64,000 bases of DNA, from contig NZ_DS264345.1 of assembly GCF_000153925.1 (NCBI RefSeq), forward strand, positions 434,001 to 498,000, given 5' to 3'. Source of the DNA: [Ruminococcus] torques ATCC 27756 (GTDB lineage Bacteria > Bacillota > Clostridia > Lachnospirales > Lachnospiraceae). Of the stretch, positions 3,033-19,641 are shown one piece after another; position 1 is the first letter of the stretch, and each line of letters begins with the position of its first letter. The translations under genes and the position numbers were made by a program. The notes beneath the pieces were generated by a model. That model saw nothing but the letters and a program-made list of their open reading frames with translations, was not told the DNA's origin and made no database searches.

Positions 3033-3139
3033 CAGTTTATGCCAAGGAAAGAAAGGTGAAAGGGTATCCAAGAAAACACTTGCTATTATTGGCTTTCAGA
3101 GTGATATATAGACTACCAAAACGGAAGGAGGTATGGCTT

Positions 3140-4645
3140 GTGGAAATTCAGATCAGGGAAGGCAGCAGGGAGCAGAAAAGAAAATTAAAAGTCTGTGCAT
3201 ACTGTCGTGTATCGACAGATGCGGATGAACAGGAAAATTCGCTGGAAAATCAGGTCAGGCATTATGAGACGGTCATAAAAGCCAATCCAGATTATGAATA
3301 TGCCGGAGTTTACAGTGATTTTGCCATATCGGGATTTAAAGAAAAGAGACCCGGTCTGCAGAAAATGCTTGCCGATGCAGAAAAAGGTAAGATAGACCTT
3401 ATATTAACAAAATCAGTATCACGTTTTGCAAGAAACACCTCAATCGTTCTGGAAGCTACACGAAAGCTGAAAGAACTGAATGTAGGTGTTTTTTTTGAAC
3501 TTCAGAATATCAATACGCTGTCAGGGGAAGGGGAGCTGATGCTTACGATCCTTGCAGCATTCGCACAGGCAGAAAGTGAAAGCGGAAGTGCTGGTGCAAA
3601 GATGGTTTACCAGCGAAAGTACGAGGCAGGAATTCCCGTACAGTACCTTGAGCGGTCTTTCGGTTATACAAAAGACGAGAGAGGAGTATTTGTTGCTGAC
3701 GAAGCTGAAGCTGTATGGGTAAGAAAAATCTATAAGATGGCAGCAGAGGGATATACTCCTGCATCGATCAAACGATACCTGAATGAAAATGGGATAAAGA
3801 CGGTAGGCGGTGTGCAGTGGGTAGACAGTACCGTGTTCCGTCTTCTTGAAAACGAGATTTACAAAGGCGATTACATCATGCACAAGCATTTCGTGAATGA
3901 AGAGAGAAAACTGGTCAGGAACAGGGGAGAAGTGGATGCATGGTACATCGAAGATGACCATGAAGCTATTGTTTCCCCGGAACTCTGGCAGAAAGCACAG
4001 GATGCATTGGCTGCAAAGAGGGATTATCTTGCGGAAGGCTCGGTGATAGAGGAGTTCACAGAAGAAAATTATCCTTATATGAACAAAATCTACTGTGCGA
4101 AATGCGGGTATCCCCTTTATAAACGCATTTACAGTAAGGGTAACAGGCTTAATTGGGGATGCAGCGGGACGAAGCGGTATGGAAAGAGCTTCTGTGATGG
4201 CATCAATATCCCGGATGGTGTGCTTCGGAGTGCATGGCATTTTGAAGAAAATACTTATATCGATGAGAAAGCATCAGATAAGGGCGTGAAGGAATTTACT
4301 TATTTAAAAGAGCACTCATGGAAGAGACGGCATAAGAAGAAACAGCCGTCAGCAATTCCTGAAAATACGGAAACAGAGTATCCATACAGAGAGAAGATCT
4401 TCTGTGCGTTATGCGGAAGCAGACTTGTAAGGTATGTGAATCCCCAGAACCATAAAGTCACCTGGGTATGTAACCGAAGAAAACGGAAGGGAAAAGAAGC
4501 CTGTGATGGGACAAGGGTTCCTGACACCGTCATAAAGGGATGGGGAGAAATCAAGAATGATATTTATATTCAGAGAAAGGACAATAAGAATGGCAAGAAG
4601 CGTTACAGTTATACCAGCAAGAAACCGTCAGGTATCAGGGTATAG
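3140..4645 (+). CDS. Large serine recombinase A (two zinc ribbons)
   Basis: This 501-residue site-specific recombinase is read from GTG 3140. AAGGAGG at 3125-3131 sits 8 bases upstream, while the longer frame from 3056 lacks such a site. The N-terminal resolvase fold has the catalytic Ser25 in YCRVSTD and the conserved SVSRFARN motif. The recombinase domain follows (about 165-280). The C-terminal half carries two Cys4 zinc ribbons in tandem (YCAKCG...GCSG...FCDG and FCALCG...VCNR...ACDG), where most family members have one. It overlaps recombinase B by 56 bases, suggesting coupled expression and a possible joint role in integration or excision of this prophage. Confidence 0.88.
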   Translation: MEIQIREGSREQKRKLKVCAYCRVSTDADEQENSLENQVRHYETVIKANPDYEYAGVYSDFAISGFKEKRPGLQKMLADAEKGKIDLILTKSVSRFARNTSIVLEATRKLKELNVGVFFELQNINTLSGEGELMLTILAAFAQAESESGSAGAKMVYQRKYEAGIPVQYLERSFGYTKDERGVFVADEAEAVWVRKIYKMAAEGYTPASIKRYLNENGIKTVGGVQWVDSTVFRLLENEIYKGDYIMHKHFVNEERKLVRNRGEVDAWYIEDDHEAIVSPELWQKAQDALAAKRDYLAEGSVIEEFTEENYPYMNKIYCAKCGYPLYKRIYSKGNRLNWGCSGTKRYGKSFCDGINIPDGVLRSAWHFEENTYIDEKASDKGVKEFTYLKEHSWKRRHKKKQPSAIPENTETEYPYREKIFCALCGSRLVRYVNPQNHKVTWVCNRRKRKGKEACDGTRVPDTVIKGWGEIKNDIYIQRKDNKNGKKRYSYTSKKPSGIRV

Positions 4646-5981
4646 GGCGGCACCGCAGAAGAAGATACGGGTTGCAGCCTACTGCCGTGTATCAACGGAT
4701 CAGGAAGACCAGCTTCACAGTTTTGAAGCCCAGGTCGATTATTATACGAAGTACATCAATGACCATGAAAATTATGAAATGGCCGGCATCTATGCGGATG
4801 AGGGTATTTCGGGAACCAATACGAAGAAGAGGGAGCAGTTCAAACGTATGATTGCGGATTGTGGGAAGGGAAAGATCGATCTTGTCATAACAAAATCCAT
4901 CAGCCGTTTTGCCAGAAATACGCAGGACTGTCTGATGTATTCCAGAAAGCTGAAGAACCTCGGAATCGGCATTATTTTCGAGAAGGAAAATATCAATACA
5001 CTGGATTCTACGGGTGAGCTTTTATTTACGATCTTAAGCTCCCTTGCACAGGATGAATCGAGAAACATTTCAGAGAACTGCAAATGGGGAATCCGGACAA
5101 AGTTCAAGAACGGTGAGATGCATCTCAATACATTCAAATTCTTGGGATATGATAAGGATGAGAATGGAAAGCTCATCATCAACAGAGAACAGGCAAAGAC
5201 GGTAAGACGCATTTACAGGGATTTCCTCTGGGGGCTGAATCCTGCACAGATTGCAAAAGAGTTGGAAGATGAGCAGGTGCCGGGATGCCTTGGACAGACT
5301 AAGTGGTATGCAAGCACGGTGATCGGAATCCTGAAACAAGAAAAGCACATGGGTGATGCGTTACTGCAGAAAACTTATACGGCTGATTTCCTTACCAAGC
5401 GTCAGGTAAAGAATAACGGGGAAGTCGCACAGGTCTATGTAAAGGACAGCCATAAGGGAATCATTGATAAGGAAACATGGAATGCGGTTCAGGAAGAATT
5501 TGAACGCAGGGAGAAATTCATGCAGAAGCATGGGACAGACCGCTACAGTTACGGTTCAGAATGTTATCCCTTCTGCGAAAAGATCTTCTGTGGGGAATGT
5601 GGAAGCCTTTTTACAAGACATTCCTGGAAATCAAGGGGGATCATACAATGGCAGTGCAAGAATCACCGTAAGGATGGAAAGGTTGCATGCACCAATGCTT
5701 ATGTAGATAATGCGGATTTGGAAAAGGGATTTGTAAAGGCATTCAACCGATTGGTCGGTGAACGGGAAAAGCATATAGAAAGATGGAATTCCATGAAATT
5801 AGATGGGACTCCGCTTGAGAAGATAAGGGCGGGGCAGATGATGGAAGCAACCGAAAGCGGACAGCTTCAGCAGTATGTTCCTGAAGCCGCACAGCTTGTT
5901 TTGGAAGAAATAACAATATTCGGTGCAAAGAAATATGAGTTTGCATTCTTGGAAGGCAGCAGGGTAAAGGTTTCCGTATGA
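4590..5981 (+). CDS. Large serine recombinase B
   Basis: This 463-residue recombinase is read from ATG 4590, with a weak AAAGG site 9 bases upstream; the frame also opens at 4557. Catalytic Ser35 lies in YCRVSTDQED, SISRFARN follows, and AQDESRNISEN leads into the recombinase domain. A single Cys4 zinc ribbon (FCGECG...QCKNH...CTNA) lies at about residues 330-380, followed by a short helical tail rather than a long coiled coil. It overlaps the end of recombinase A and ends head-to-head with the minus-strand ParB operon, the two stop codons being directly adjacent. It is the more typical of the pair and could be the integrase acting at comEC, but that is not proved here. Confidence 0.88.
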   Translation: MARSVTVIPARNRQVSGYRAAPQKKIRVAAYCRVSTDQEDQLHSFEAQVDYYTKYINDHENYEMAGIYADEGISGTNTKKREQFKRMIADCGKGKIDLVITKSISRFARNTQDCLMYSRKLKNLGIGIIFEKENINTLDSTGELLFTILSSLAQDESRNISENCKWGIRTKFKNGEMHLNTFKFLGYDKDENGKLIINREQAKTVRRIYRDFLWGLNPAQIAKELEDEQVPGCLGQTKWYASTVIGILKQEKHMGDALLQKTYTADFLTKRQVKNNGEVAQVYVKDSHKGIIDKETWNAVQEEFERREKFMQKHGTDRYSYGSECYPFCEKIFCGECGSLFTRHSWKSRGIIQWQCKNHRKDGKVACTNAYVDNADLEKGFVKAFNRLVGEREKHIERWNSMKLDGTPLEKIRAGQMMEATESGQLQQYVPEAAQLVLEEITIFGAKKYEFAFLEGSRVKVSV

Positions 5982-5994
5982 TCATTCGGAAACC
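5969..5994. terminator. Palindrome spanning both convergent stop codons
   Basis: GGTTTCCG (5969-5976) and CGGAAACC (5987-5994) form a perfect 8-bp inverted repeat. Its 10-base centre holds the TGA of recombinase B (5979-5981) and the TGA of the opposing gene (5982-5984). It may act as a compact bidirectional transcript end, although no T-run follows on either strand. Confidence 0.4.
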
Positions 5995-6905
5995 TCCTCC
6001 TCATCATCCAAGCCAAATAAGTCAAGCTGCCCGTTCTGCGGCATATCATCAGTTTCTTCTTCCTGTTCTGTTTCATCAGCTTTCTTCTGTGGGAGTTTAT
6101 GCGTGTAGAGCTTATCCCACGGAAGCGGATTCCTGCATTTTTTGTTATATCCGATAAGGATTGCTTCTGCAAATCCAAGAGAGCCGGAACGCCTGTCCTT
6201 TGCAGTACGAGCCAGTTCCTTAATGGATATTCTTCCCAGTTTTTCTTTAAAAATATCATCTTTGATCGCATCGCCATAGGCATTCAGAAAACGTGCCAGC
6301 CCATTCATCATGTTTGCACTGAAGGACTGGGCAGCACCTTCCCATGTTGCGACAATCAGGCGGATCACATGATCGAGCATGTGATAGCCGTATTTGTCGT
6401 GGATGGTCTCAAGGGTAGCAACGGCACAGATACCGCCAGGAACAGAAGAAGAGGTGATGGAAAGGTCATAAGATTCTACTAGATCACGGATGATAAGCTG
6501 TTTATCATTCCCAGCCTCAATGTTTGCCATGAATATTTCATAGGGAAGCAGGGGCTTTACATACTTCATCTGATTAGCAAAAATATCGGCTTCGTGTTCG
6601 TAAACGAGGTCATCATAGACCATGCACCATACAGGAGTCTCTCTTGAACCGGAGACGAGTGCCACGATTTCAATGGTGTGCTGCCCGTTAAAGACATAGT
6701 TGATGCCGTTACGGCGGCTGACTTTTACGGGATTTATCTGGTACAGATCGAAGTTCGCAGCGGCACGCTGGACATGATTCTGTGAAAGATTTCTCTGATA
6801 TTCCTGGTTGGATACAAGATTCCTGATGGGAATCTGCTCAAAGTGTACTTTTGGAACATACTGCATGAGATCAGTTTGTTCCGATATTGCTTGGTCATCT
6901 GTCAT
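5982..6905 (-). CDS. DUF6551-like ParB/Srx-fold protein with C-terminal clamp-binding-type motif
   Basis: This 307-residue protein is the last gene of the five-gene minus-strand operon, one base after the preceding stop. The N-terminal third resembles a ParB/Srx fold: IPIRNLVSNQEYQRNLS, then VFNGQHTIEIVAL in the place of the usual DGHxR box. The core (about 80-260) is helical and resembles DUF6551 proteins found in Clostridia mobile elements (recalled family resemblance, not searched). The tail is acidic and disordered and ends NGQLDLFGLDDEEE; QLDLF at residues 293-297 matches the canonical sliding-clamp (DnaN) binding pentapeptide. A role in partition, replication coupling or recombination control is inferred from context. 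Confidence 0.7.
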   Translation of the reverse strand: MTDDQAISEQTDLMQYVPKVHFEQIPIRNLVSNQEYQRNLSQNHVQRAAANFDLYQINPVKVSRRNGINYVFNGQHTIEIVALVSGSRETPVWCMVYDDLVYEHEADIFANQMKYVKPLLPYEIFMANIEAGNDKQLIIRDLVESYDLSITSSSVPGGICAVATLETIHDKYGYHMLDHVIRLIVATWEGAAQSFSANMMNGLARFLNAYGDAIKDDIFKEKLGRISIKELARTAKDRRSGSLGFAEAILIGYNKKCRNPLPWDKLYTHKLPQKKADETEQEEETDDMPQNGQLDLFGLDDEEEVSE

Positions 6906-6906
6906 T

Positions 6907-7875
6907 TTAATCCTCCTCCAACTGCGTCAGCAGTCTGTTTATTTTTCGTGTAAGGTTTATGATCTGTGTCCTGACTTCTTGCCGGGCAGAAGCGGATGTG
7001 GAAGGAAAATCCGTAAGTTCCATTGTCCTTGATATGGTTTTGGACCATGAAGGAATGGTAAATTTAAGGCTTGCCAGTTCTGCATCTGGGTCAATGACGG
7101 GCATCTGTTTGATGCCAGCCTCGGCACTTTCCCTTTCACGTCTGCGCCTTCGGGAATCCGGTTTTCCTGTAGGAAGCCGCTGCCATCGCAGTTCATGCCG
7201 TAACTGCGAGTAGCCGATGCGGTCGATCGAACCGCTGTTGAGCAGTCTTTTAAGTCCATTGATATCTTCGATGGGAAGTCTTGACAGTTCTATGACATTT
7301 TCATGGGATACACGGAGACTGCCGTTTAATATTCTGGATGTTATTTCCGGTTCTTTTATGCGGAGTTCATCGAGTGCTCTTGCGTACACATCGTATTTTG
7401 TAACAGTGGAAAAGCTGAAGTTATATTCTTTTCCGATAATGGCTGCAATCTCCGTTTTCTGTACATACTTCTGGGATATCTGTCCGTCTGCGTTGAGCTG
7501 TTTCTCAGGATGATTTTTCAGAAAATCAGCACTGGCAATATTCATGTCTGCCCGGAAGCGCCTGCCAATAAGATATTTTTTGTATTCACTTGTGAGGTCC
7601 TTCCGTTTAAGCTGCTCTGTACATATGTAGGCTTCCGCTTCGTCACGGCTCTGGAAGAAGAGTCTGCGTATATTGAAGTGGATATCCCACTTCCGGCAGA
7701 TGGAATAACGGAGATGTCCATCGATGAGGATATTTCCCCAGACACATATAGCTTCATCACAGCCATGATCGAAGATATCTTCTTCGAGATCTTCTATATA
7801 TTTTTCTACTCTTGGCTGGATGAGCTGCAGAAATTCAGCATCGGTTTCAAAATCTGGAATCTGATGATTACTCAT
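6907..7875 (-). CDS. ParB-like partition/nuclease-fold protein
   Basis: This 322-residue protein starts at ATG 7875, overlapping the previous stop by 4 bases. The N-terminal domain shows the ParB/Srx signature: VWGNILIDGHLRYSICRKW at about residues 46-64, with DGHxR being the nucleotide-binding box. A helical middle region follows, with a possible helix-turn-helix (KTEIAAIIGKEYNFSFSTVTKY). A basic RRRRRER stretch at about 247 and a C-terminal coiled coil (NLTRKINRLLTQLEED) could serve DNA contact and dimerisation. No ParA ATPase is encoded nearby, so classic plasmid partition is unlikely; regulation or assembly on recombination sites is an alternative. Confidence 0.75.
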   Translation of the reverse strand: MSNHQIPDFETDAEFLQLIQPRVEKYIEDLEEDIFDHGCDEAICVWGNILIDGHLRYSICRKWDIHFNIRRLFFQSRDEAEAYICTEQLKRKDLTSEYKKYLIGRRFRADMNIASADFLKNHPEKQLNADGQISQKYVQKTEIAAIIGKEYNFSFSTVTKYDVYARALDELRIKEPEITSRILNGSLRVSHENVIELSRLPIEDINGLKRLLNSGSIDRIGYSQLRHELRWQRLPTGKPDSRRRRRERESAEAGIKQMPVIDPDAELASLKFTIPSWSKTISRTMELTDFPSTSASARQEVRTQIINLTRKINRLLTQLEED

Positions 7876-8264
7876 ACGATTTCACCTATTCTGACAGATT
7901 CATCCACGAGGATACATTCCTGCATGGAAAAGCTTGCCAGTCCTTCTTTTTTATTTATTGCACCATAGATGCGGTAGGATCTGTTATTGGAAAGTTCCGC
8001 ATTGGTCTGTTTTAAAGTCTGGAGCAGTTCACGGCTGTATAATTCGTAACTGTTTCGAATGTCGGAATAGCATGCCCTGACATGGTGGGCAAGGTAATCC
8101 TGACGGACGCTTTTCCTGACGGCAATCATATGGGTGTCGGGATTTACCAGAAGCTGGATATATTCTGGATCACCGAGCATATGAAGAGTATGTTTGTGTA
8201 TTCGGATGCGGTTTTTCTTTAAGTCAATGCATAGGATTGGCTGTGAAGAGGGATGATTGTTCAT
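7872..8264 (-). CDS. Stand-alone recombinase-tail-like protein (short paralogue)
   Basis: This 130-residue protein starts at ATG 8264, fixed by AGGAGG 8 bases upstream; the frame itself is open further 5' but without a site. It overlaps the preceding gene by 41 bases and the next by 4. The N-terminal half matches a segment shared with the tail of recombinase C and with the 8224-8940 product: a beta-rich stretch (ILCIDLKKNRIRI), a helix, then IQLLVNPDTHMIAVR. Near the end SYRIYG matches the YRITG/YKLLG motif of its relatives. It has no catalytic motif. It may be an accessory subunit of the recombinase, or arise from duplication and decay. Confidence 0.65.
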   Translation of the reverse strand: MNNHPSSQPILCIDLKKNRIRIHKHTLHMLGDPEYIQLLVNPDTHMIAVRKSVRQDYLAHHVRACYSDIRNSYELYSRELLQTLKQTNAELSNNRSYRIYGAINKKEGLASFSMQECILVDESVRIGEIV

Positions 8265-8940
8265 AGTGTGTTTCCTCCTTTTGTGGTTCGGCTGGATTTT
8301 TGGGTTCTTCTGGCGGTGTGTTCTCTGAAATTCCAAAGACAGCATAGCCGTCAAACATATTGATCTGTAAGTTGCTCTGGTGTTCCTCAACCGGCACACC
8401 GAATTGGTTCTGCCATTCCGCTGGATATGTAGGTGTCCGGGATGTCTTTATCTTTCCATCGTCTTTTGCTGTACGCACATATATTTCGGGCGTGGTAAGG
8501 TCAAAGACGAATAAGAGTTCATTATCAGACCGTATCAGTTTGCCGAGCAGTTTATAACGGTAACTGGAATTCCATCCCATCAAGGTTATTACCTTGGCAA
8601 AAAAGATCCGGCATGTGATCTGCCTTGGGGAACGCTTCTTTGTAGCAGAGCACCATCGGAAGGAGTCTTTTTCATCTTCCTGGCATGGGCGGACGGCAAG
8701 TTTCTTTTCATCCGGGTTCACAAGGATCTGTACAAAATCTGTCTTAGGCAGCTTTTTGATGCATGCAGTATTTACGGATACTTTGTTGGCATTAAATGTA
8801 AAGGATGGTTCATAGGTGTGGGCGAAGAATTCTCCACGCACTACCTGATAACCCTCATAGCTGAAGGCATCGTCCTCGATGATCTGTAAGTCCCTTGAAG
8901 AGGACTGGATTAAGGTTTCATTGTTTGGCTGTTCATTCAT
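8224..8940 (-). CDS. Stand-alone recombinase-tail-like protein (long paralogue)
   Basis: This 238-residue protein starts at ATG 8940, overlapping the end of recombinase C by 8 bases. It aligns by eye along most of its length with residues about 390-565 of that recombinase: GYQVVRGEFF with GYEIARSQFF, VQILVNPDEKKLAVR with VELLIHPNKHLFAVR, LMGWNSSYRYKLLG with LLGWNADCRYRITG, and TYPAEWQNQFG with AYPPDWADTFG. It lacks the resolvase domain. The C-terminus ends YEQSSLFTANPMH, where QSSLF (residues 228-232) resembles a sliding-clamp motif. It is likely a DNA-binding partner or directionality-type factor for recombinase C, by inference only. Confidence 0.7.
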   Translation of the reverse strand: MNEQPNNETLIQSSSRDLQIIEDDAFSYEGYQVVRGEFFAHTYEPSFTFNANKVSVNTACIKKLPKTDFVQILVNPDEKKLAVRPCQEDEKDSFRWCSATKKRSPRQITCRIFFAKVITLMGWNSSYRYKLLGKLIRSDNELLFVFDLTTPEIYVRTAKDDGKIKTSRTPTYPAEWQNQFGVPVEEHQSNLQINMFDGYAVFGISENTPPEEPKNPAEPQKEETHYEQSSLFTANPMH

Positions 8941-10798
8941 TACGGTTCTCCTTCATGTCAGACATGAGTTGTTCTATGCTTTTTTCTACTTCATCAGGAC
9001 TGGTCACCTGTATGTCTGAATCTTTGTATGCAACTGCTTCGTTGGAAAGGGTGTTCTGGTCATTGAATCTGGCAAATTCCTGTGCCTGTGCATGGCAGTA
9101 GTAGTTGCTGCCGAAAGTGTCAGCCCAGTCAGGCGGATAGGCACGGACATTTTTTTTGAGATTGTCAGTAAATGGTTTTACGTCCGTTGGTGCATCTGGT
9201 AGCTGCTGTTCATCGATCACATCATTTGGAATAAAAATTTCAGTTTCTTCCAGATTGAAGATAAGGACAGCATCCGATCCGTTTCCACGCTTGATTCCTG
9301 TTATGCGGTATCTGCAGTCTGCGTTCCAACCGAGAAGTGCATAGATGGTAGGCATAAAAGCTGTACCGCTGATTGCCCTTGGGGTAGAAATATTCCCTCG
9401 CTTTTTTGCCCACTGCATGGCGTTTCGATGCGTTTGTGGGACGATCCTTACGGCAAAGAGATGTTTGTTCGGATGGATCAGAAGTTCTACCAGTGTGCTG
9501 TTCAGTTTTCTAACGGCAGTGGTTGAAAATTTAATATCATTAAGACTGAATGTCACGATAATGCGATCAGTGCTGTCAAAAAACTGTGAGCGTGCAATTT
9601 CATAACCACGCAGGTCAAAGTCCCCAGACTGCACTTTCACGGGTGACGAGGGTGGGAGAAACTGTTCTGTACCGCCATATACACTTAGGGAAGCATTGAT
9701 ATAATCATCCTCTTTAAAGCCGGCCCATCGTGGATTAATGGATACAAAGCCTTTCAATACTCCATCTGGCAGGACCTTTAACTCCGGCAGTATTCCCTTA
9801 TTTCCATACTTGGCATTGCTGATGAGCCGTTGTACGGCAATGAAATCGTCACGGGACACAATTGCTTCATGGTGATTACGTTTCCTGTATTGCGGGCGGT
9901 TCTGCATGTTCTTTTTTGATTTGTGATTCAGGTAATTTGGAGTATAAGTCTTTCGGGCAAGAACATCACCGCAGTGTCGTTCATTCTGCAATATCTGAAG
10001 GATTGAGCCGGGAGACCATACGGTATTCCCTTTTTTAGTTTCACACTCCAGTTCCGTCAGGGTATCAGCGATTTCCTGACAGGTGCAGCCGTTTAAGTAC
10101 ATCATAAATATGAGACGTACAATCTTTGCTTCCGCTTCATTGATTACAAGGTTTCCATCTTCATCATGGTCATAGCCGAGAAGCGTGGGAGTGAGGAATA
10201 TCCCCCTTCGAAACCGCATCTCAATGGAAGCATTCATAATCTCACTCTTGGTATGGCTTTCTTCCTGTGCGAGGGTAGCCATGAAGGAAAGTACCATTTC
10301 GCTTTTCGGATCAAAGGTATTCAATCGCTCTGTCTCGAAAAAGACACCGACCGGATGCGGGAGAGCCAGCAGTTCACGGACATATCCGATGCAGTCTACA
10401 ACATTCCTGGCGAAACGGGACACGCTCTTTGTAACGATAAGATCGATTTCTCCTTTTTTACAGTCTTCAATCATCTGTTTGAACTGATCACGATGCTGCA
10501 GAGAAGTGCCGGATATGCCTTCATCCGCATAGATCTGTACAAGTTTCCAATTCGGACTTTTGCTGATGACATCGTGGTAGTGGTTTTTCTGTAACTCATA
10601 AGAAGATGTCTGTCTTGGATCGTCTGTGGATACTCTTGCGTAGACGGCTACCCGCTGTTCATTTTCAACAGCGAATATATCTTCCTGTGGAAGTGCCGGA
10701 ATTACATCAAGTTCATCAATGCTGACTCCTTTATATCGTTCCCTGATTTTGTTTTTCTGATCCGCAATGGAGCCGGATTTCTGTTCGTTTTCTCTCAT
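8933..10798 (-). CDS. Large serine recombinase C with atypical C-terminal tail
   Basis: This 621-residue recombinase is the first gene of the minus-strand operon. ATG 10798 follows AAGGTGG. The catalytic Ser57 lies in YARVSTDDPRQ, followed by SVSRFARN and AQEESHTKSEI; the recombinase domain extends to about residue 340. There is no Cys4 zinc ribbon. Instead a 230-residue tail (about 389-621) carries the HPNKHLFAVR and GWNADCRYRITG motifs shared with the next two proteins. The opposite orientation and separate operator-like promoter suggest a role distinct from recombinases A and B, for instance regulated excision or mobility of the module itself. Confidence 0.85.
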   Translation of the reverse strand: MRENEQKSGSIADQKNKIRERYKGVSIDELDVIPALPQEDIFAVENEQRVAVYARVSTDDPRQTSSYELQKNHYHDVISKSPNWKLVQIYADEGISGTSLQHRDQFKQMIEDCKKGEIDLIVTKSVSRFARNVVDCIGYVRELLALPHPVGVFFETERLNTFDPKSEMVLSFMATLAQEESHTKSEIMNASIEMRFRRGIFLTPTLLGYDHDEDGNLVINEAEAKIVRLIFMMYLNGCTCQEIADTLTELECETKKGNTVWSPGSILQILQNERHCGDVLARKTYTPNYLNHKSKKNMQNRPQYRKRNHHEAIVSRDDFIAVQRLISNAKYGNKGILPELKVLPDGVLKGFVSINPRWAGFKEDDYINASLSVYGGTEQFLPPSSPVKVQSGDFDLRGYEIARSQFFDSTDRIIVTFSLNDIKFSTTAVRKLNSTLVELLIHPNKHLFAVRIVPQTHRNAMQWAKKRGNISTPRAISGTAFMPTIYALLGWNADCRYRITGIKRGNGSDAVLIFNLEETEIFIPNDVIDEQQLPDAPTDVKPFTDNLKKNVRAYPPDWADTFGSNYYCHAQAQEFARFNDQNTLSNEAVAYKDSDIQVTSPDEVEKSIEQLMSDMKENRNE

Positions 10799-10810
10799 GT
10801 CTTACCACCT

Positions 10811-10852
10811 TTTTCTTATGATGTGGTTTATTATAAAATTTTCATAAGAAAA
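10811..10852 (-). promoter_or_regulatory. Promoter and operator-like inverted repeat of the recombinase C-ParB operon
   Basis: TTTTCTTATGA (10811-10821) and TCATAAGAAAA (10842-10852) form a perfect 11-bp inverted repeat. Between the arms, on the minus strand, lies TATAAT (10830-10835), about 32 bases upstream of ATG 10798. A protein bound to both arms would cover the -10 box, so this is a good candidate operator for one of the XRE regulators or for autoregulation. Confidence 0.5.
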
Positions 10853-10855
10853 TAA

Positions 10856-10893
10856 AATAGACCATACGGACAGGCATATCCGCATAGTCTATT
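10856..10893 (-). terminator. Terminator of the minus-strand XRE gene
   Basis: Read on the minus strand, a 15-bp stem (two G-U pairs, 8-base loop) is followed by a T-rich stretch. It ends the 10936-11313 transcript before the recombinase promoter. Confidence 0.6.
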
Positions 10894-10935
10894 CCAAAGC
10901 AATTTTTTATGTGTGAAAATAGTGTGCCGCAGCAT

Positions 10936-11313
10936 CTATGCTTCGTCAGCCGAAATATGCCATCCGTTTTTATGCATGCTATCAATGCTTGCTTTTACCA
11001 TTTCATAAATGAAGCGTTTCTCATTTTCTGTGCATTCAGCCATCAGCAGATCTAGGTCAGTTTGGTAAGCGGTAGGGTTGTGGAGCTGTACTCCAGCGAG
11101 CAGCTCATCGACCGTTATTCCCAGGGCATTTACAATCCGGATAATGGACTCAAGACTGGCCTTACGTTTGGCATTTTCAATATGGCTTATGTAGGAGATG
11201 GAGAGTTCCGTTTCCTCTGCAAGCTGTGCCTGTGAAAAATTGTTCTGTTCCCTGACTTCCTTAATGCGGTATCCTATCTGTTTATGATTTACAGATGCAA
11301 GTGATTCATTCAT
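10936..11313 (-). CDS. XRE-family helix-turn-helix regulator
   Basis: This 125-residue protein starts at ATG 11313 after AGGAGG. Residues about 12-70 form a classic XRE/Cro-CI domain: IGYRIKEVREQNNFSQAQLA, SISYISHIENAKRKASLESI and the closing VNALGITVDELL. The C-terminal 50 residues are helical with no peptidase motif, so it is not a LexA-like, self-cleaving repressor. It has its own terminator and points away from the second XRE gene across a 388-base control region. It is probably the lysogeny or element-maintenance regulator. Confidence 0.82.
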   Translation of the reverse strand: MNESLASVNHKQIGYRIKEVREQNNFSQAQLAEETELSISYISHIENAKRKASLESIIRIVNALGITVDELLAGVQLHNPTAYQTDLDLLMAECTENEKRFIYEMVKASIDSMHKNGWHISADEA

Positions 11314-11701
11314 AATGTTACCTCCTGTTTCTTTTTCTTACGCAAATAGATTATCCGTCAGCGAGTGGTAAAAGGTTATGTAATTTAATAAAGTAGAGTG
11401 GAGTATTGCCGGATAACAAGGTGTCAATATATGTAGACATTTGTCGAACGATTTTGATTGATGGGCAGTATAAAAGATGCTATGCTGATGATGGAACTGA
11501 TAATATGGAAGTGAAAGAAACAAGGAAAAACAAGGAATTATAAGAAATACATATTGAACTGCGGTGTGCTGCTGTTCATATTTTTTTACCCTTATAGTAA
11601 AGTGTAATGGAGTAAATTACTAAAGAAATATGGTTCTAATATTTATTCTGGTTTGCGGTTAAAATAAATGTATCGCAGAGCAGAAGAGAGGTGTAATTTA
11701 C
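11314..11701. promoter_or_regulatory. 388-base divergent control region between two XRE genes
   Basis: No gene is supported here. The stretch is AT-rich. It holds an AGTAA-A-TTACT palindrome (11611-11621) beside a second AGTAAA copy 14 bases upstream (11597-11602), which are candidate operator half-sites. On the minus strand TTGACA (revcomp at about 11433-11438) could be a -35 box for the leftward gene, but its -10 is poor. Confidence 0.4.
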
Positions 11702-12022
11702 TTGCGTACAGAGGACTATATCCCGAAAAGGGTAAAAGAATTATGCAGCAAGCATAAGGTTTCCAAGTACCGACTCGCACAGCTCACTGATATGTCACAG
11801 ACCGCTTTAGGGAATATAATCAAGAAAGAGAGCATTCCAACGATACCGACTTTGGAAAGAATCTGTGATGCATTCGGAATTTCACTAGCACAGTTTTTTG
11901 CCGGGGACGGCATGAGACCAGATCTGACAGATGAGCAGGAAGAGATATTGGAAACATGGGATAACCTAAATGCTGATGAGCGGAGAATTTTAATGAACTT
12001 CGTGAGATCTTTGAAGAAATAG
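11702..12022 (+). CDS. XRE-family helix-turn-helix regulator
   Basis: This 106-residue protein starts at TTG 11702, placed by AGAGGTG about 8 bases upstream. The HTH spans residues about 8-65: VKELCSKHKVSKYRLAQLT, MSQTALGNIIKKESIPT and ICDAFGISLAQFF. The C-terminal helices end LNADERRILMNFVRSL, a common tail in Lachnospiraceae XRE proteins. It is divergent from the other XRE gene, resembling a CI/Cro pair. A hairpin terminator begins at its stop codon. Confidence 0.82.
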   Translation: MRTEDYIPKRVKELCSKHKVSKYRLAQLTDMSQTALGNIIKKESIPTIPTLERICDAFGISLAQFFAGDGMRPDLTDEQEEILETWDNLNADERRILMNFVRSLKK

Positions 12023-12065
12023 GGGAAGCAGTTCAATTGTATCTGATTGATTGTTTCCCCTTTTT
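12021..12065 (+). terminator. Intrinsic terminator after the XRE gene
   Basis: AGGGGAA (12021-12027) pairs with TTCCCCT (12055-12061), followed by TTTTT. The first arm begins within the stop codon. Confidence 0.65.
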
Positions 12066-12107
12066 CTATGCGCTTTCCACGGCAGAAGAAAGCAGTGAGG
12101 ATACAGA

Positions 12108-12419
12108 ATGAGTGTAAAAGATGAGGAGTTCAAAACAAAAATCTACGATCTGATGAATGGAAGCTACAATCTTGAGGAATATCCGGTTGCAGAAAGTAGC
12201 CTGGTAAAAGACGAATTTGCAGAAGGGGAATACTGTGAAAAATTATATTCGCAGATGCTGGAAGCCTATGAGAGGGTATGCAGAAGACTTGGAAAGCTAG
12301 GCACAGAAGATGAAGATGTGGAGATTATCATATCGAACCTCATGAGCATAGGCAGACATCAAAGTATGAAGATGTTTGACTATGGGGTGCTTTTTACAGA
12401 AAGAGAAAATAAACAGTAA
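12108..12419 (+). CDS. Small acidic protein of unknown function
   Basis: This 103-residue protein starts at ATG 12108 with a weak upstream site (GTGAGG). It is predicted all-helical and acidic, with EGEYCEKLYSQMLEAYERVCRRLG and a second helix around EDVEIIISNLMSIGRHQSMKMFDYG. It has no membrane segment or known catalytic motif. Small helical proteins of this layout are common beside XRE regulators in Clostridia prophages and integrative elements. I cannot assign a family with confidence. Confidence 0.6.
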   Translation: MSVKDEEFKTKIYDLMNGSYNLEEYPVAESSLVKDEFAEGEYCEKLYSQMLEAYERVCRRLGKLGTEDEDVEIIISNLMSIGRHQSMKMFDYGVLFTERENKQ

Positions 12420-12428
12420 TGTAACTGT

Positions 12429-12469
12429 AAAATGGTGTGGCTGTGATTGGATGGCTGCACCATTTTTTG
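12429..12469 (+). terminator. Intrinsic terminator
   Basis: AAAATGGTG (12429-12437) pairs exactly with CACCATTTT (12458-12466) and runs into further Ts. It separates the small acidic gene from the Schlafen-like gene. Confidence 0.65.
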
Positions 12470-12516
12470 ATATAATCGAATGTAATCAAATGTTGACGAA
12501 GGGAGATAAAAAGTAG

Positions 12517-13647
12517 ATGAACGGAATGAATGATTTGCCACTGGATAGAATAGTTGAGATTTTGGCTGTTAAAGGGCGTGAAGGCGAATATTGGGACTAT
12601 AAGCAGGAGTGGCATGAGAATATGGCAGATTTGTTAAAAGATATTATTTGTTTTGCCAATACTCCACATGATGCAAACTGTTATCTTCTCTTTGGGATTG
12701 ATGATGACGGACATATTGTTGGAATGAAAAAGAATAGACGTAAACAGGCAGATATTTTAGAAGCAATGGATAATCTTTGGTTTATCGGGGACGTTAGACC
12801 TGAAATTTCTGTGGAAACTGTTGTGGTAAATGAAATAGAGGTGGATGTTCTTACTGTATATGATACGCAGAAGACACCTATATATTTAAAAAGAAACTAT
12901 GGAGAAATGCTTGCCGGATGCATTTATATGAGAAATGGGGATAAAAACACTCCGAATAGAGGAATGGCAAGTATTGATGATGTAGAAAAACTCTGGAAAA
13001 AACGGTTTGGTTTATTGCAGACACCATTGGAGTATATTATCGGAAGACTGCAGTACCAGACAGAGTGGAAGCAGCAGGATCATATTTATTACAATATGTA
13101 TAGACCTGAATATCAGTTGAAAATACTAAAGGGTGACGAAGACTATTTAATTCCGGAATTTTATGCTTATACGATGTCAAATAAAAGTACATCGTATGAA
13201 ATGCTTCAGATTATTGCTGGAGACACGATATTAGAAGAATATCAAATTGTAGTATTGGACAGTGGAAGATATAAAACTCCAGTACCAGAATGGGGATTTG
13301 CAGGATACGACAGGTATAGAATTGATCATAAATTCACATATAAGTATTTTGTAAAAGGAAGTACGGAATATAGATTGCAACAGTTCTTTTTGGACGGTGA
13401 AAATGAAGAAGCAATATATGCTAATCGTAGACTGATGGAAGTGGTTTTACTTTATGAAACCGAAGATGAAAAGTCTGCGTTTGAAGCATATATTGAGGAT
13501 AACCAAGAAGAAATAATGGAAAGAATTAGTAAAAAGGATAGGTATTCATATATTCAAGCTACAAATGAACTGGATACTAAAGAATGCATAAAAAGGCTTA
13601 ATACAGGATTAGTTTTAAATGAAATGCTGCGTGAGTGGCGGAAATAG
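12517..13647 (+). CDS. Schlafen/AlbA_2-domain protein (accessory, possible defence gene)
   Basis: This 376-residue protein starts at ATG 12517 after GAAGGGAG. Residues about 10-160 match the Schlafen AlbA_2 (AAA_4) domain: GREGEYWDYKQEW, IICFANTPHDANCYLLFGIDDDG, and IYMRNGDKNTPNRGMASIDDVEKLW. Residues 160-376 form an unrecognised second domain rich in aromatic and acidic residues. It is the outermost gene of the element, next to the predicted right attachment junction, where accessory cargo often sits. Schlafen-type proteins include regulators and anti-phage effectors; which applies here is unknown. Confidence 0.72.
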   Translation: MNGMNDLPLDRIVEILAVKGREGEYWDYKQEWHENMADLLKDIICFANTPHDANCYLLFGIDDDGHIVGMKKNRRKQADILEAMDNLWFIGDVRPEISVETVVVNEIEVDVLTVYDTQKTPIYLKRNYGEMLAGCIYMRNGDKNTPNRGMASIDDVEKLWKKRFGLLQTPLEYIIGRLQYQTEWKQQDHIYYNMYRPEYQLKILKGDEDYLIPEFYAYTMSNKSTSYEMLQIIAGDTILEEYQIVVLDSGRYKTPVPEWGFAGYDRYRIDHKFTYKYFVKGSTEYRLQQFFLDGENEEAIYANRRLMEVVLLYETEDEKSAFEAYIEDNQEEIMERISKKDRYSYIQATNELDTKECIKRLNTGLVLNEMLREWRK

Positions 13648-13717
13648 AGAATATCCCAGGGGAGCATATCCCACAAGGGGTTATCCCCCAAAAGGGTGTG
13701 GGTGAATATCTCTTTTT
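13646..13717 (+). terminator. Structured terminator at the element's right end
   Basis: AGAGAATAT (13646-13654) pairs with ATATCTCT (13706-13713) with one bulge, followed by TTTTT. Inside are CCCACA/TGTGGG and AGGGG/CCCC pairings and repeated ATCCC words, giving a compact branched structure. Confidence 0.5.
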
Positions 13718-13770
13718 AATAAGAAGTTATGCCATCTATAAATGACAGGGGAAAACCCTAGACGGGGCTT
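13718..13770. other. Predicted right attachment junction (attR) of the prophage in comEC
   Basis: The comEC frame is open only from 13762; the codon before it is TAG (13759-13761). It then reads T-G-L-H-M-S-F-I-G, matching the conserved SGLH-start of the ComEC competence domain, except that the first Ser codon is replaced. The strand exchange therefore falls at or just before about 13762-13767. The matching attL and comEC 5' part must lie left of the window, so the core cannot be defined exactly. Confidence 0.6.
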
Positions 13771-13773
13771 CAT

Positions 13774-15417
13774 ATGTCCTTTATCGGAAGCGGTCTTTAT
13801 GGATTTCTGAGAAAAAGAGGAGTGGGATTTCCGGTGTCAGGAGCTGTCGGAACGATTGTTTTGCTTTTTTATACAGTAATGACCGGAGCGAGTATTTCAG
13901 CTTTAAGAGCGCTTATTATGTTTTCCGTTCGGATGGGCGCTGAAGTGACAGGAAGAGATTATGACCTTCCCACAAGTCTTGCTGTGGCAGCGGCGCTGCT
14001 TAGTGCAAAAGATCCTCTCTGTCTGTCAGATGCAGGATTTTTGTTTTCTTTTGGATCACTTTGCGGAATTTGTATGCTGACGCCTTTGTTTGAATGTTTG
14101 TTCGGGTGTGGTACGGAGAAAAAGAATATATGGACGCATATGGGGAAAGCGGTGAGCGCAAGTTTGGCAGTGAATCTGTTTTTGCTTGGTCCTATGCTGT
14201 ACTTTTATTTTGAAATCCCGCCGTACTCGGTTTTTTTAAATTTGTTTGTGATCCCGGCTCTCCCGGTTATTATGGGAACGGGGCTGTCGGGTTCTGTGAT
14301 GATCCTGCTTGTAAAACCGATCGGTATTATTTTGCTGAAAAGTTCCGGCGTGATACTTTGGGCGTATGATCGATTGTGCTCTGCGGCAGTTATGCTTCCG
14401 TTCGGGCGGATAACGGCAGGAAAACCGAGCGTACAATTACTTGTCGCTTATTATGTGATATTGTTCGCGTTATATGGAATGTATCGGCGTTTTCCAAAGA
14501 AAATATGGGGGTATATGCTTTTTGTTTCGGCGGCGTTTTTGATTGTTTTATGCGGAGCAAAAACCCGGGATATTGAAGGAATAAAAATAACAGTGCTGGA
14601 TGTGGGGCAAGGTGATGGCATTGTTCTTTCGGGAAAAGGGAAAAACTATTTGATAGACGGGGGCAGCAGTGATGTAAAACAGGCAGGCGCTCAACGGATC
14701 GAACCGTATTTGTTGTCGGAGGGCATCGGATGCCTTGATTATGTATTTGTGACTCACGGAGATGAGGATCATATCAGTGGAATAAGAGAACTTCTGGAAG
14801 GGCAGAAGCTGGGAGTTCGTATTGACACGCTTGTGCTTCCTCCCGAAGAATATCATGATGAAAAGTTGGCAGATCTGGCGCGCATAGCGGTAGAAAACGG
14901 AACGCGTGTCGTTTCTGTGAAAACAGGAGCAAATATATATGGAAGAGGAGAAAGGCAGACAGAAAAAAACGATTCAAAAGAAGTGATGCGGTTGAGATGT
15001 ATCGGCCCGCTTACGGACATACCGCAGGGGCTGACAAAACCAAAGGCGGGAAATGAGGCGTCTCTTGTGCTTGAGTTTTCTTATGGGAATTTCGATATGC
15101 TTTTTACCGGGGATGTGGAAGGTGCGGGAGAGGAACTTCTTGTTAAAAGCGATGTTTTGAGAAAATATGAAATTTTAAAATGTGCCCATCATGGATCGAA
15201 AAACTCGGGTACAGCTGCATTTCTTGAGAAGACAGATCCAAGAGCGGCTATCATCTCGGCAGGAATTGATAATCGGTACGGACATCCGCATGAAGAGACG
15301 TTAAATAGGTTGAAAAAGAGAAAAGTGAAAACATATAATACTCAGACAGACGGGGCTGTCACAATAAAGTCTGACGGAATACAGATTAGTATTGAGAGTT
15401 TTCTCTTGTCAAAATGA
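13774..15417 (+). CDS. comEC: ComEC competence channel, C-terminal part (gene split by prophage)
   Basis: This 547-residue remainder of the DNA-uptake channel includes several transmembrane helices of the competence domain (about 1-260) and a metallo-beta-lactamase-like nuclease domain (about 265-545). The latter has LDVGQGDGIVLSG, DYVFVTHGDEDHISG (HxxxDH metal site) and AHHGSKNSG. ATG 13774 has no ribosome-binding site; the true frame continues to 13762 and is cut by the element. Intact ComEC is about 750 residues, so the OB-fold and first membrane helices are missing. This fragment should be inactive unless the element excises. holA follows with its own promoter. Confidence 0.85.
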   Translation: MSFIGSGLYGFLRKRGVGFPVSGAVGTIVLLFYTVMTGASISALRALIMFSVRMGAEVTGRDYDLPTSLAVAAALLSAKDPLCLSDAGFLFSFGSLCGICMLTPLFECLFGCGTEKKNIWTHMGKAVSASLAVNLFLLGPMLYFYFEIPPYSVFLNLFVIPALPVIMGTGLSGSVMILLVKPIGIILLKSSGVILWAYDRLCSAAVMLPFGRITAGKPSVQLLVAYYVILFALYGMYRRFPKKIWGYMLFVSAAFLIVLCGAKTRDIEGIKITVLDVGQGDGIVLSGKGKNYLIDGGSSDVKQAGAQRIEPYLLSEGIGCLDYVFVTHGDEDHISGIRELLEGQKLGVRIDTLVLPPEEYHDEKLADLARIAVENGTRVVSVKTGANIYGRGERQTEKNDSKEVMRLRCIGPLTDIPQGLTKPKAGNEASLVLEFSYGNFDMLFTGDVEGAGEELLVKSDVLRKYEILKCAHHGSKNSGTAAFLEKTDPRAAIISAGIDNRYGHPHEETLNRLKKRKVKTYNTQTDGAVTIKSDGIQISIESFLLSK

Positions 15418-15435
15418 TTGTTTTTCCTTTATAAT
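15406..15435 (+). promoter_or_regulatory. Promoter of holA
   Basis: TTGTCA (15406-15411), an 18-base spacer and TATAAT (15430-15435) overlap the comEC stop codon. The expected start of transcription is about 15442, only about 3 bases before the holA ATG. Confidence 0.6.
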
Positions 15436-15444
15436 ACAAGAGTT

Positions 15445-16428
15445 ATGAAAAGCTTAAATGAAGATTTGAAAACGGGACAATTTAAACAGATTTATCTTCT
15501 GTACGGAGAAGAGTCATATTTGAAGCGACAGTATAGGGAACGGCTTGTCAGAGCGATGATTCCGGAAGGCGATACGATGAATTATGCCGTCTATGAAGGA
15601 AAGAACATAGATATAAAAGAGGTAATCGATCTGGCGGAGACATTGCCGTTTTTTGCATCGCGCCGTCTTATTGTGTTTGAAGATACAGGCTTTTTTAAAA
15701 ATGCAGGAACAGATCTGGCAGATTATATTACGGACATCCCGCCTACTACTTATTTTTTATTTATAGAAAAAGAGGTAGATAAGCGAAACAGGCTGTATAA
15801 AGCGGTAAAGGCAAAAGGTCATATTGTCGAGTTGACGGTTCAGGATGAAAATACGCTGCGGCGCTGGGTGCTTGGTCTTGTAAAGAAAGAAAAAAAGCAG
15901 ATGGAAGGCGCAGATGCGGCATATTTTCTGAATAAGGTCGGCACGGATATGGAGAATATCACACAAGAACTGGAAAAACTGTTTTGTTATACGATCGGAA
16001 AAGATCGGATTACAAGAGACGATATTGATCAGATCTGTGTCACTCAGATTACGAACCATATATTTGAGATGGTCAATGCGGTTGCAGGAAAAGACCAGAA
16101 GAGGGCGTTGGATCTTTATTATGAGCTACTTGCCCTGAAAGAACCGCCGATGCGTATTCTGTTTTTGATGACGAGAGAATACCGCCTTTTATTTCATGTC
16201 AAAGGTCTGATGGCGAATGGATACGGGAAGAAGGAAATCGCTTCAAAGGCAGGGATCCATCCGTTTGCTGCGGGAAGGTATATGGATGCGGCGAAACGAT
16301 ATGAACTCGGAGAGCTGAGAACTGTTATGGAAGAAGGGGCGCAGTTAGAGCAAAATGTTAAGACCGGACTTATGACAGATACTTTGGCTGTGGAACTTTT
16401 TATTGTGAAGAATTCGGGAAAGCAGTGA
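15445..16428 (+). CDS. holA: DNA polymerase III delta subunit
   Basis: This 327-residue clamp-loader delta subunit begins at ATG 15445 ([23 protein letters not shown], the usual family start); the frame also opens at 15418 inside the promoter. The N-terminal AAA+-like domain has no intact Walker A, as expected for delta. The C-terminal helical domain ([20 protein letters not shown]) binds the loader collar. It opens the DnaN clamp ring during loading. The gene has no clear Shine-Dalgarno and lies 10 bases downstream of a TATAAT box, pointing to a near-leaderless mRNA. This would keep an essential gene on while comEC is interrupted. Confidence 0.88.
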
Positions 16429-16489
16429 AGTTTATCACAAAATCAAATACAGAAATCATATAAAATATGCAAATAATGGAGGAATGAAA

Positions 16490-18304
16490 TTGTCAGTTAT
16501 AGATCAGAGTAAAATAAGAAATTTTTGTATTATCGCGCATATCGATCACGGAAAATCTACGTTAGCAGACAGGATTATTGAACAGACAGGCCTCTTGACG
16601 AGCAGAGAGATGCAGTCTCAGGTGCTTGACAACATGGAGCTTGAAAGAGAACGCGGAATTACGATTAAAGCACAGACGGTTCGTACCGTATATAAGGCAG
16701 ACGACGGGGAGGAATATATGTTTAACCTGATCGATACGCCGGGACATGTAGACTTTAATTACGAAGTTTCAAGAAGTCTGGCTGCGTGTGACGGAGCGAT
16801 TTTAGTAGTTGACGCAGCTCAGGGAGTAGAAGCACAGACATTGGCGAATGTATATCTTGCGTTGGATCATGACCTTGATGTGATCCCGGTGATCAATAAG
16901 ATCGATCTTCCGAGTGCAGATCCGGAGAGGGTGAAAGAAGAAATTGAGGATGTGATCGGTATTGAAGCGGAAGATGCCCCGCTTATTTCAGCTAAGACAG
17001 GACAAAATATCCATGACGTATTGGAGCAGATCGTGAAAAAAGTTCCTGCGCCTCAGGGAGATCCAAAGGCTCCGTTAAAAGCGCTGATCTTTGACTCCGT
17101 CTATGATTCTTACAAAGGGGTCATTGTATTTTGCAGGATAAAGGAAGGAACGGTGAAGAAAGGAACTCCGATGCTTATGATGGCGACAGGCGCTCAGGCA
17201 GATGTTGTGGAAGTCGGAACTTTCGGAGCGGGAAGATTTATACCATGTGAAGAGTTGAGCGCCGGAATGGTCGGATATATTACTGCCAGCCTGAAGAATG
17301 TAAAAGAGACGCGGGTGGGCGATACAGTGACTGATGCGTCAAGACCGTGTGACTCGCCTTTGCCGGGATATAAAAAAGTAAATCCGATGGTATACTGCGG
17401 ACTTTATCCGGCAGACGGAGCAAAGTATCCGGATCTTCGAGACGCTCTTGAAAAATTACAGCTCAACGATGCGGCGCTGCAATTTGAAGCGGAAACATCG
17501 GTCGCTCTTGGGTTTGGATTCCGCTGCGGATTTCTCGGACTTCTTCACCTTGAGATTATCCAGGAACGTTTGGAGAGGGAATATAATTTGGATCTCGTAA
17601 CAACGGCGCCGAGTGTAATTTACAAAATCCATAAAACAAACGGAGAAGTGATCGATCTGACAAATCCGACGAATATGCCGGATCCGGCGGAGATTGATTA
17701 TATGGAAGAACCTATGGTAAAAGCGGAGATCATGGTTACATCGGAATATATCGGTGCGATCATGGATCTTTGTCAGGAACGCAGAGGCATTTATCAGGGA
17801 ATGGAATATATCGAGGAAAAACGTGCCGTATTGAATTATCATCTTCCGCTGAATGAAATCATCTATGACTTTTTCGATGCATTGAAGTCAAGATCAAGAG
17901 GATATGCGTCATTTGATTATGAGATGATGGGATATCAGAAATCTGAACTTGTGAAGCTTGATATTCTTATTAATAAAGAAGAAGTGGATGCATTGTCGTT
18001 TATTGTATTTGCAGGAAGCGCTTATGACCGCGGAAGAAAAATGTGCGCGAAATTAAAAGAAGAAATTCCGAGACAGCTTTTTGAGATTCCGATACAGGCG
18101 GCAGTCGGAAGTAAGATCATCGCTCGTGAAACAGTAAAGGCAATGAGAAAAGATGTGTTGGCAAAATGTTATGGCGGTGATATTTCACGTAAGAGAAAAC
18201 TGCTTGAAAAGCAGAAAGAGGGAAAGAAAAGAATGCGTCAGGTCGGCAGCGTAGAGATACCGCAGAAAGCATTTATGAGCGTACTGAAGTTGGATGACGA
18301 GTGA
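16490..18304 (+). CDS. lepA: Elongation factor 4 (LepA GTPase)
   Basis: This 604-residue ribosome-bound GTPase (LepA/EF4) promotes back-translocation and initiation fidelity. G motifs are AHIDHGKST (P-loop), DTPGHVDF (G3) and NKIDL (G4). They are followed by domain II, the EF-G-like domains and the LepA-specific C-terminal domain ending [18 protein letters not shown] 16490 is preferred: GGAGG at 16478-16482 leaves 7 bases to it, but only 1 to ATG 16484. It sits between holA and hemW; rpsT, gpr and spoIIP, often found here in Clostridia, are absent. Confidence 0.95.
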
Positions 18305-18369
18305 TTTTTGTTGTCGATGTATAAGTGAAAAAGTGATGTTTAAAACATCTTAAAGAGGTAAAGGAAAAT

Positions 18370-19641
18370 ATGAAAAAAGAACTGGAACTGTATGTGCATA
18401 TTCCTTTTTGCGTAAAGAAATGTGCGTATTGTGATTTCCTTTCGTTTTCTGCAAAGCAAGAGGAGGTTTCTGCTTATGTGGAAGCTCTTGCGGAGGAGAT
18501 AAAAGGAAAAAAAGAACAGTTTTCGGATTATTGCGTGACAACGATTTTTTTAGGCGGTGGAACTCCTTCTATATTAGAGGGAGTATACACTGCCTCTATT
18601 TTTCGTGCTTTGCGGGAAAGTTTCGATATTGCGGAGAATGCGGAAATAACGATGGAAGTAAATCCCGGAACTGTGTCGGAAGAAAAGATAAACATGTGGA
18701 AAACATGCGGAGTGAACCGGTTAAGTATCGGTCTTCAATCGGTCGATGACGGAGAACTGAAAATGCTTGGACGTATCCATACATATGATGAATTTCTCAC
18801 TACATGGAAGATGGTAAGAAAAGCAGGATTTCATAACGTTAATATCGATTTGATCTCGGCGATTCCCGGGCAGACAAAAAAGAGCTGGGAAACAACGCTT
18901 CGCACAGTTGCGCAGTTACAGCCGGAACATATTTCCGCATATAGTTTAATTATAGAAGAAGGAACTGTTTTCGGTACGATTTACGGGGAGGATGGGGAGC
19001 GGATATGCCAAAAAGAACTGTTGTCCCGCGAGAGTAGTATGCCGGAAGTATCAGATAAAGACGGTAATATAAGAAAAGACAGACAGATACTTCCGCTTCC
19101 CGATGAAGATACAGAACGGGCGATTTATGAAATAACAGAGAAGATCCTTCGGGAATACGGGTATGAGAGATATGAGATTTCAAATTATGCAAAACCGGGA
19201 TATGAGTGCAGGCATAATTTAGGGTATTGGGAGCGAAGAGAATATCTCGGACTGGGACTGGGGGCGTCCTCTCTGATTGCCGAACACCGATTCTGCAATA
19301 CAGATAAAATGGATGTTTATATAAGACTGAATAAGACTGTAGATCCGGACGGCAAAAAAGAAGAGAGTAAAAAAGCGGTATGGGAAAAAGCAGAAGAAGT
19401 AAGTGTACTGTCAGTGCAAGAGCAAATGGAAGAATTCATGTTTCTCGGACTGCGGAAAACAGATGGAGTGTCGGAAAAAAGTTTTTTTGAAACATTCGGG
19501 GTGCAAATAGATACGGTTTACGGAGAAACGATCGGAAAACTTGAAAAAGAACGTCTTTTGATAAAAGAAAAAGGGCAGATCCGCCTGACAGAGCGGGGAG
19601 TTGATATAAGCAACTATGTAATGAGTGAGTTTTTGTTTTGA
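18370..19641 (+). CDS. hemW: Radical SAM heme chaperone HemW
   Basis: This 423-residue protein of the oxygen-independent coproporphyrinogen oxidase-like family has CVKKCAYCDF (CxxxCxxC radical-SAM cluster), GGGTPS, and the HemW-type LSIGLQSVDDGELKMLGRIH motif. The extra fourth-Cys pattern CxxxCxxCxC of true HemN is not present, which supports HemW. Residues about 200-240 hold a poorly conserved insertion. The C-terminal HemN_C domain includes EEFMFLGLRKTDGVS. It is 65 bases after lepA, and the lepA-hemW-hrcA order is conserved in Firmicutes. The function is heme insertion or trafficking. Confidence 0.92.
   Translation: MKKELELYVHIPFCVKKCAYCDFLSFSAKQEEVSAYVEALAEEIKGKKEQFSDYCVTTIFLGGGTPSILEGVYTASIFRALRESFDIAENAEITMEVNPGTVSEEKINMWKTCGVNRLSIGLQSVDDGELKMLGRIHTYDEFLTTWKMVRKAGFHNVNIDLISAIPGQTKKSWETTLRTVAQLQPEHISAYSLIIEEGTVFGTIYGEDGERICQKELLSRESSMPEVSDKDGNIRKDRQILPLPDEDTERAIYEITEKILREYGYERYEISNYAKPGYECRHNLGYWERREYLGLGLGASSLIAEHRFCNTDKMDVYIRLNKTVDPDGKKEESKKAVWEKAEEVSVLSVQEQMEEFMFLGLRKTDGVSEKSFFETFGVQIDTVYGETIGKLEKERLLIKEKGQIRLTERGVDISNYVMSEFLF

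Follow-up and report, generated by a model that had tools for sequence, protein, structure and literature searches.

A co-inherited operon of a serine recombinase and ParB-type proteins in a comEC prophage of [Ruminococcus] torques and in elements with other integrases

The DNA analysed here (the window) is a stretch of 64,000 nucleotides from [Ruminococcus] torques ATCC 27756 (contig NZ_DS264345.1, positions 434,001 to 498,000), in which five genes, designated C, D, E, F and G, follow one another on the minus strand behind a helix-turn-helix (HTH) repressor gene, HTH1. Consecutive genes overlap by 8, 41 and 4 bases and the last gap measures a single base. A preliminary description, made from the sequence alone, had read them as one operon encoding a serine recombinase without a zinc ribbon, two proteins sharing its tail, a ParB-like protein and a DUF6551-like ParB-fold protein, with no ParA; it further proposed that they act as one machine, perhaps controlling prophage excision or moving independently. 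The coordinates and the domain composition bear out the first part of this account. Protein C matches the Pfam domains PF00239 (1.9e-27) and PF07508 (5e-24), the catalytic motifs YARVS and SRFAR can be read in its translation, and its best Protein Data Bank (PDB) chain match is 3g13, a putative conjugative transposon recombinase (1.5e-36). The catalytic serine and arginines are retained in all 80 readable C proteins (86 examined, 6 misread), whereas a zinc ribbon has no Pfam match in C and the Cys4 pattern occurs in 0 of 86. The tail of C is homologous to D and E. The predicted model of F has a complete ParB core, comprising a nucleotide-binding fold and an HTH, and G matches PF20188 (DUF6551) with 112.1 bits against a cut-off of 26.8. 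The D family has 2566 relatives, the 120 listed being without a Pfam domain, and the D profile gave 0 matches to PDB sequences. At six other loci (L055, L061, L100, L132, L134 and L138), inspection by eye revealed a paralogue of the recombinase catalytic domain, about 200 amino acids long and without the active serine, directly upstream of C.

Conservation of the gene set was assessed with a D-profile scan of species genomes, which confirmed 97 places, the best 80 being kept, plus 37 in viral contigs. The locus set (scan places and two phage records) comprised 118 loci, of which 96 were non-redundant and 70 of these long enough; all five genes are present, in order and on one strand, in 67 of the 70. 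Because D had served as bait, additional searches were made with F and G. Matches to F were found in 7 of 195 genomes, six of them with the module, and relatives of G in 6 of 246, with C and D adjacent in all six and F in five. The exception of the F search, locus L021, has distant F and G genes (9730-19489) followed by several large serine recombinases (LSRs) and a TnpV-like protein; D and E were not detectable beside these distant F and G. Pairwise comparison of the protein distances for HTH1 and for C to G gave a correlation in each of the 15 pairs (Mantel r 0.55-0.75), the maximum among 200 permutations being 0.21. G-like proteins of at least 60% identity were seen only in 17 phage records, all of which also have D. 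The module was found in Lachnospirales, Negativicutes and candidate Melainabacteria records, and in elements other than prophages. Hence the genes stay together, and the outcome that the preliminary description named as refuting it, genes lying mostly apart, was not observed: the module is real and, as far as inheritance goes, behaves as one unit, as that description had supposed. The operon contains no ParA and no recurrent neighbour cluster is ParA-like, the scan having covered these neighbours and not whole carriers.

Table 1. Features of the module and its surroundings, in window positions.
Feature	Positions	Strand	Description
Gene C	8933..10798	-	621 amino acids; serine recombinase with catalytic domain, recombinase domain and a tail domain replacing the zinc ribbon
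Gene D	8224..8940	-	238 amino acids; free-standing tail-domain protein, weakly MraZ-like fold
Gene E	7872..8264	-	130 amino acids; short protein of the tail-domain type
Gene F	6907..7875	-	322 amino acids; ParB-like, N-terminal nucleotide-binding fold and HTH core
Gene G	5982..6905	-	307 amino acids; DUF6551 ParB-fold protein
Hairpin	10853..10896	-	20-bp stem and T-tract between HTH1 and C; terminator-like
HTH1	10936..11313	-	Cro/CI-type regulator (repressor gene), co-inherited with C to G
RecA	3056..4645	+	LSR with zinc ribbon; likely part of the prophage integrase, outside the module
RecB	4557..5981	+	LSR with zinc ribbon, tail-to-tail with G; like RecA, a likely component of the prophage integrase
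HTH2	11702..12022	+	second Cro/CI-type regulator, belonging to the phage block
Schlafen/AlbA_2 gene	12517..13647	+	candidate defence gene PDC-S50; cargo adjoining the attachment site
attR core GG of prophage	13765..13766	.	inside comEC
Host comEC, 3' part	13774..15417	+	split portion begins at contig 447762 (13762); 5' part ~56 kb upstream on the same contig

Between HTH1 and C lies a hairpin (-27.7 kcal/mol, z -6.2), and a strong inverted repeat occupies this position in 55 of 86 loci. Repeat scores average 11.4 in real sequences and 7.1 in shuffled ones, 52 of the 86 loci exceeding all ten of their own shuffles. The repeat resembles an RNA terminator; mismatches of the GU kind outnumber those of the AC kind by 38 to 14 (kinship of the sequences not being corrected for), an excess that looks like a sign of RNA pairing. 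It cannot serve only as the terminator of the HTH gene, because it is kept (score of at least 11) in 9 of the 21 loci whose nearest HTH gene points away. A role as a DNA crossover site was considered and rejected, given the GU excess and the presence of one copy only in its own genome, with up to 3 mismatches allowed. Rfam returned no match. A sigma-70 scan upstream of C found nothing resembling a promoter on the minus strand, although a TATAAT-like box recurs before C.

The carrier in the window is a prophage of 56,094 bp inserted in comEC between GG cores at contig positions 391671 and 447765, the 5' part of the gene lying at 390960-391706 and the 3' part resuming at 447762. Its split target, dinucleotide core and LSRs near one end fit a comEC serine-recombinase prophage, of which phi1207.3, described as entering comEC at a GA dinucleotide and having serine recombinases at its end (PMC4260502), is an example. 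comEC is split likewise in three further genomes (G018, G056 and G201), and Kineothrix alysoides has an identical left junction. Natural competence of the lysogen is probably broken unless the prophage excises. Between the module and attR, the Schlafen/AlbA_2 gene matches the PADLOC candidate PDC-S50 (2.4e-130). Relatives of RecB occur in 452 records; among the 60 listed, 21 belong to the PV036 phage series, 15 with D and 6 without, and others are Streptococcus phages at 50-52% identity, none of which is among the 20 phage records carrying D. At L024 the module block is adjoined by the RecB end only and comEC is intact. Since RecB relatives occur without D, and in view of the L024 arrangement, RecA and RecB are the simplest candidates for the integrase and the module would be dispensable for it; inserting or removing the prophage is probably not its role.

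Other mapped elements also carry integrases other than C. Elements of 19.6-21.8 kb in cpaF of Coprococcus comes, Blautia luti and Bilifractor porci have the module ~0.5 kb from one end, and at the far end a trio of tyrosine recombinases accompanied by DUF6262 and TnpV proteins (Pfam-confirmed in one of the three elements); an MmeI-type restriction-modification (R-M) system is present in a cpaF element. In three further genomes searched for such elements, the halves lay on different contigs or other copies were found. That C integrates the cpaF elements was at first the favoured view, G lying ~0.5 kb from the junction, and was dropped in view of the tyrosine-recombinase trio at the other end. 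Near-identical elements in four species (L030, L031, L032 and L035) occupy one conserved codon of cpaF, which encodes a tad pilus ATPase, and differ in the kind of R-M cargo. Anaerocolumna sp. MB42-C2 has an element at another codon of comEC, with G less than 0.5 kb from the near end and an LSR pair (38% and 47% identity to RecB) at the far end; the second comEC insertion codon, noted at L027 (genome G203) for an element whose LSR pair is a different one, lies near the KVAHHGS motif. The prophage of Kineothrix alysoides has RecA (68%) and RecB (73%) at one end and the module at the opposite end, where R-M genes separate the attachment site from G. L017, a Mediterraneibacter catenae locus that shares its module with L052, has a relaxase gene in the vicinity, and neither RecA nor RecB gave a match there. 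A scan of flanks of up to ~8 kb found no queried integrase or transfer gene in 61 of the 96 non-redundant loci. LSR matches starting within 2.6 kb after G are antiparallel, that is tail-to-tail, in 17 of the 96, some of them diverged, and 2 weak matches are parallel. Among the 57 loci of at least 14 kb, 14 have R-M-type clusters, labelled by eye and with no control set, in the flanks of the module (17 of 96 overall).

We tentatively read HTH1-C-D-E-F-G as a passenger, a site-specific recombination module of unrelated integrative elements that resides in the accessory zone near the attachment site, because its integrases, target sites and element types vary and it shows no ends of its own. This reading builds on what the data support directly: conserved order, overlaps, co-inheritance, the catalytic residues of C, the domain make-up and carriers with different integrases. 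Protein C would cut and rejoin DNA at a site for which its MraZ-like tail, together with the free tail proteins D and E, provides recognition. F and G would load at that site as nucleotide-gated ParB-type clamps and permit the reaction or give it its orientation, and operon expression would be held low in the integrated state by HTH1 and the terminator hairpin. The reaction would most likely take place in cis on carrier DNA, as resolution, inversion or a second step of excision or integration, and not at the host site of the carrier's integrase. It is conceivable, if doubtful, that this constitutes a new type of machine, in which targeting and synapsis are set by the recombinase's own tail, free copies of that tail and two ParB-type nucleotide-gated clamps, and which acts away from the attachment site, possibly against competing elements. 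Several observations weigh against the passenger reading and its mechanism. A substrate site was not found: the inverted repeat that precedes C is single-copy in its own genome and terminator-like, and neither inversion nor a duplicated site was seen. The MraZ likeness of the D-type tail domain is weak. DNA sliding clamps were top-ranked for D in Foldseek, in many rows, but with E above 0.01 and a template-modelling score of ~0.1; a sliding-clamp fold was not confirmed, VIA-align having listed none. Furthermore, the tail-to-tail adjacency to LSRs could reflect a functional tie to integration.

The same adjacency (to zinc-ribbon LSRs), together with the position of the module ~0.5 kb from the element end in the cpaF elements and one comEC element, is what might be expected if D to G set the assembly or direction of C, or of RecA and RecB, and hence prophage excision, as the preliminary description proposed. 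This we consider unlikely, and the proposal is not supported: RecB relatives occur without D in part of the PV036 series and among the listed Streptococcus phages, the module occurs in elements with different integrases, the tyrosine trio included, and in Kineothrix alysoides it stands at the opposite end of the prophage from RecA and RecB, the stretch from the attachment site to G being occupied by R-M cargo. Phage phi1207.3, too, is described as having serine recombinases at its end and a dinucleotide as its point of insertion in comEC (PMC4260502). A role in defence or inter-element conflict, with ParB-type clamps marking incoming DNA and C cutting or rearranging what is marked, would suit an accessory, patchy module common to several carriers, flanked in some loci by R-M-type genes, including the MmeI-type system, and adjoined in the window by the PDC-S50 candidate; it is nevertheless improbable, for the R-M association is uncontrolled and the accessory zones of mobile elements carry R-M genes anyway. 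A known anti-phage defence system was rejected, since in PADLOC only F had a match, at an E-value of 0.015, and C, D, E and G had none.

Resolvase and ParB are a known pairing on plasmids, and C might accordingly resolve multimers of the excised circle, with F and G as partition or clamp proteins that work without ParA; no ParA-like family recurs among the neighbours. This maintenance role is quite unlikely, however, as the carriers are integrative, no second site was seen, and a search for D in 72,556 plasmid records yielded 1 weak match at 27% identity. Independent movement, the other suggestion of the preliminary description, would make HTH1-C-G a small element inserting into other elements, and blocks of ~5.4 kb do recur at 88-96% identity in differing surroundings. 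Also in its favour, the genes around the module at L038 (7487-12900) look like ordinary chromosomal ones, and no further gene of a mobile element was recognised close to it. We nonetheless regard it as highly improbable, because the shared blocks are without common ends: comparison by eye revealed no shared terminal sequence in five pairs of related modules read at both ends, nor in three further pairs read at the 3' end. No empty site was found for L038; of the 6 genomes searched, that of L038 among them, 4 had MerR homologues, and the three besides its own were non-syntenic. Downstream of G, no conserved sequence was seen in the loci inspected.

Control of serine recombinases usually falls to small direction factors or to accessory sites, and the main settings in which ParB clamps are known are the segregation of DNA and the regulation of plasmid genes; a co-inherited operon of recombinase and ParB-type proteins would represent a new way of gating DNA rearrangement. 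We found no account of the operon in the literature searched on DUF6551, ParB with serine recombinases, the phage records and the phage order. The D family, through the listed relatives, supplies proteins beyond present Pfam domains, and the module can be tested with purified proteins and cultured commensal lysogens.

Among known systems, the prophage in the window resembles the phi1207.3-type comEC prophages in its end-located serine recombinases, comEC insertion and dinucleotide duplication (PMC4260502), and in the RecB relatives of the listed Streptococcus phages; it differs in D, which was not found in Streptococcus phage records. Records of the Ca. Heliusvirales phages carry the same block, 6 of the 21 listed PV036-series records having RecB without D, and a term search in the main text of the 2022 family paper found integrase, recombinase and ParB unmentioned (PMC9226167). 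Compared with DNA-binding proteins of the MraZ/AbrB type, the tail domain is without a Pfam or PDB sequence match and in C is fused to a recombinase. G resembles DUF6551 proteins through PF20188, and its relatives at 60% identity or more were seen only in phage records that also have D; phage DUF6551 fusions are reported to bind nucleotide, one cytidine triphosphate and one adenosine triphosphate (PMC12704722). The model of F is like ParB, KorB and Noc in its nucleotide-binding fold and HTH core, although the module differs from these systems in having no ParA in the operon and in including a recombinase. Finally, C is alike to the large serine integrases in its catalytic and recombinase domains, but its zinc ribbon is replaced by a D/E-type tail and its carriers have integrases of their own.
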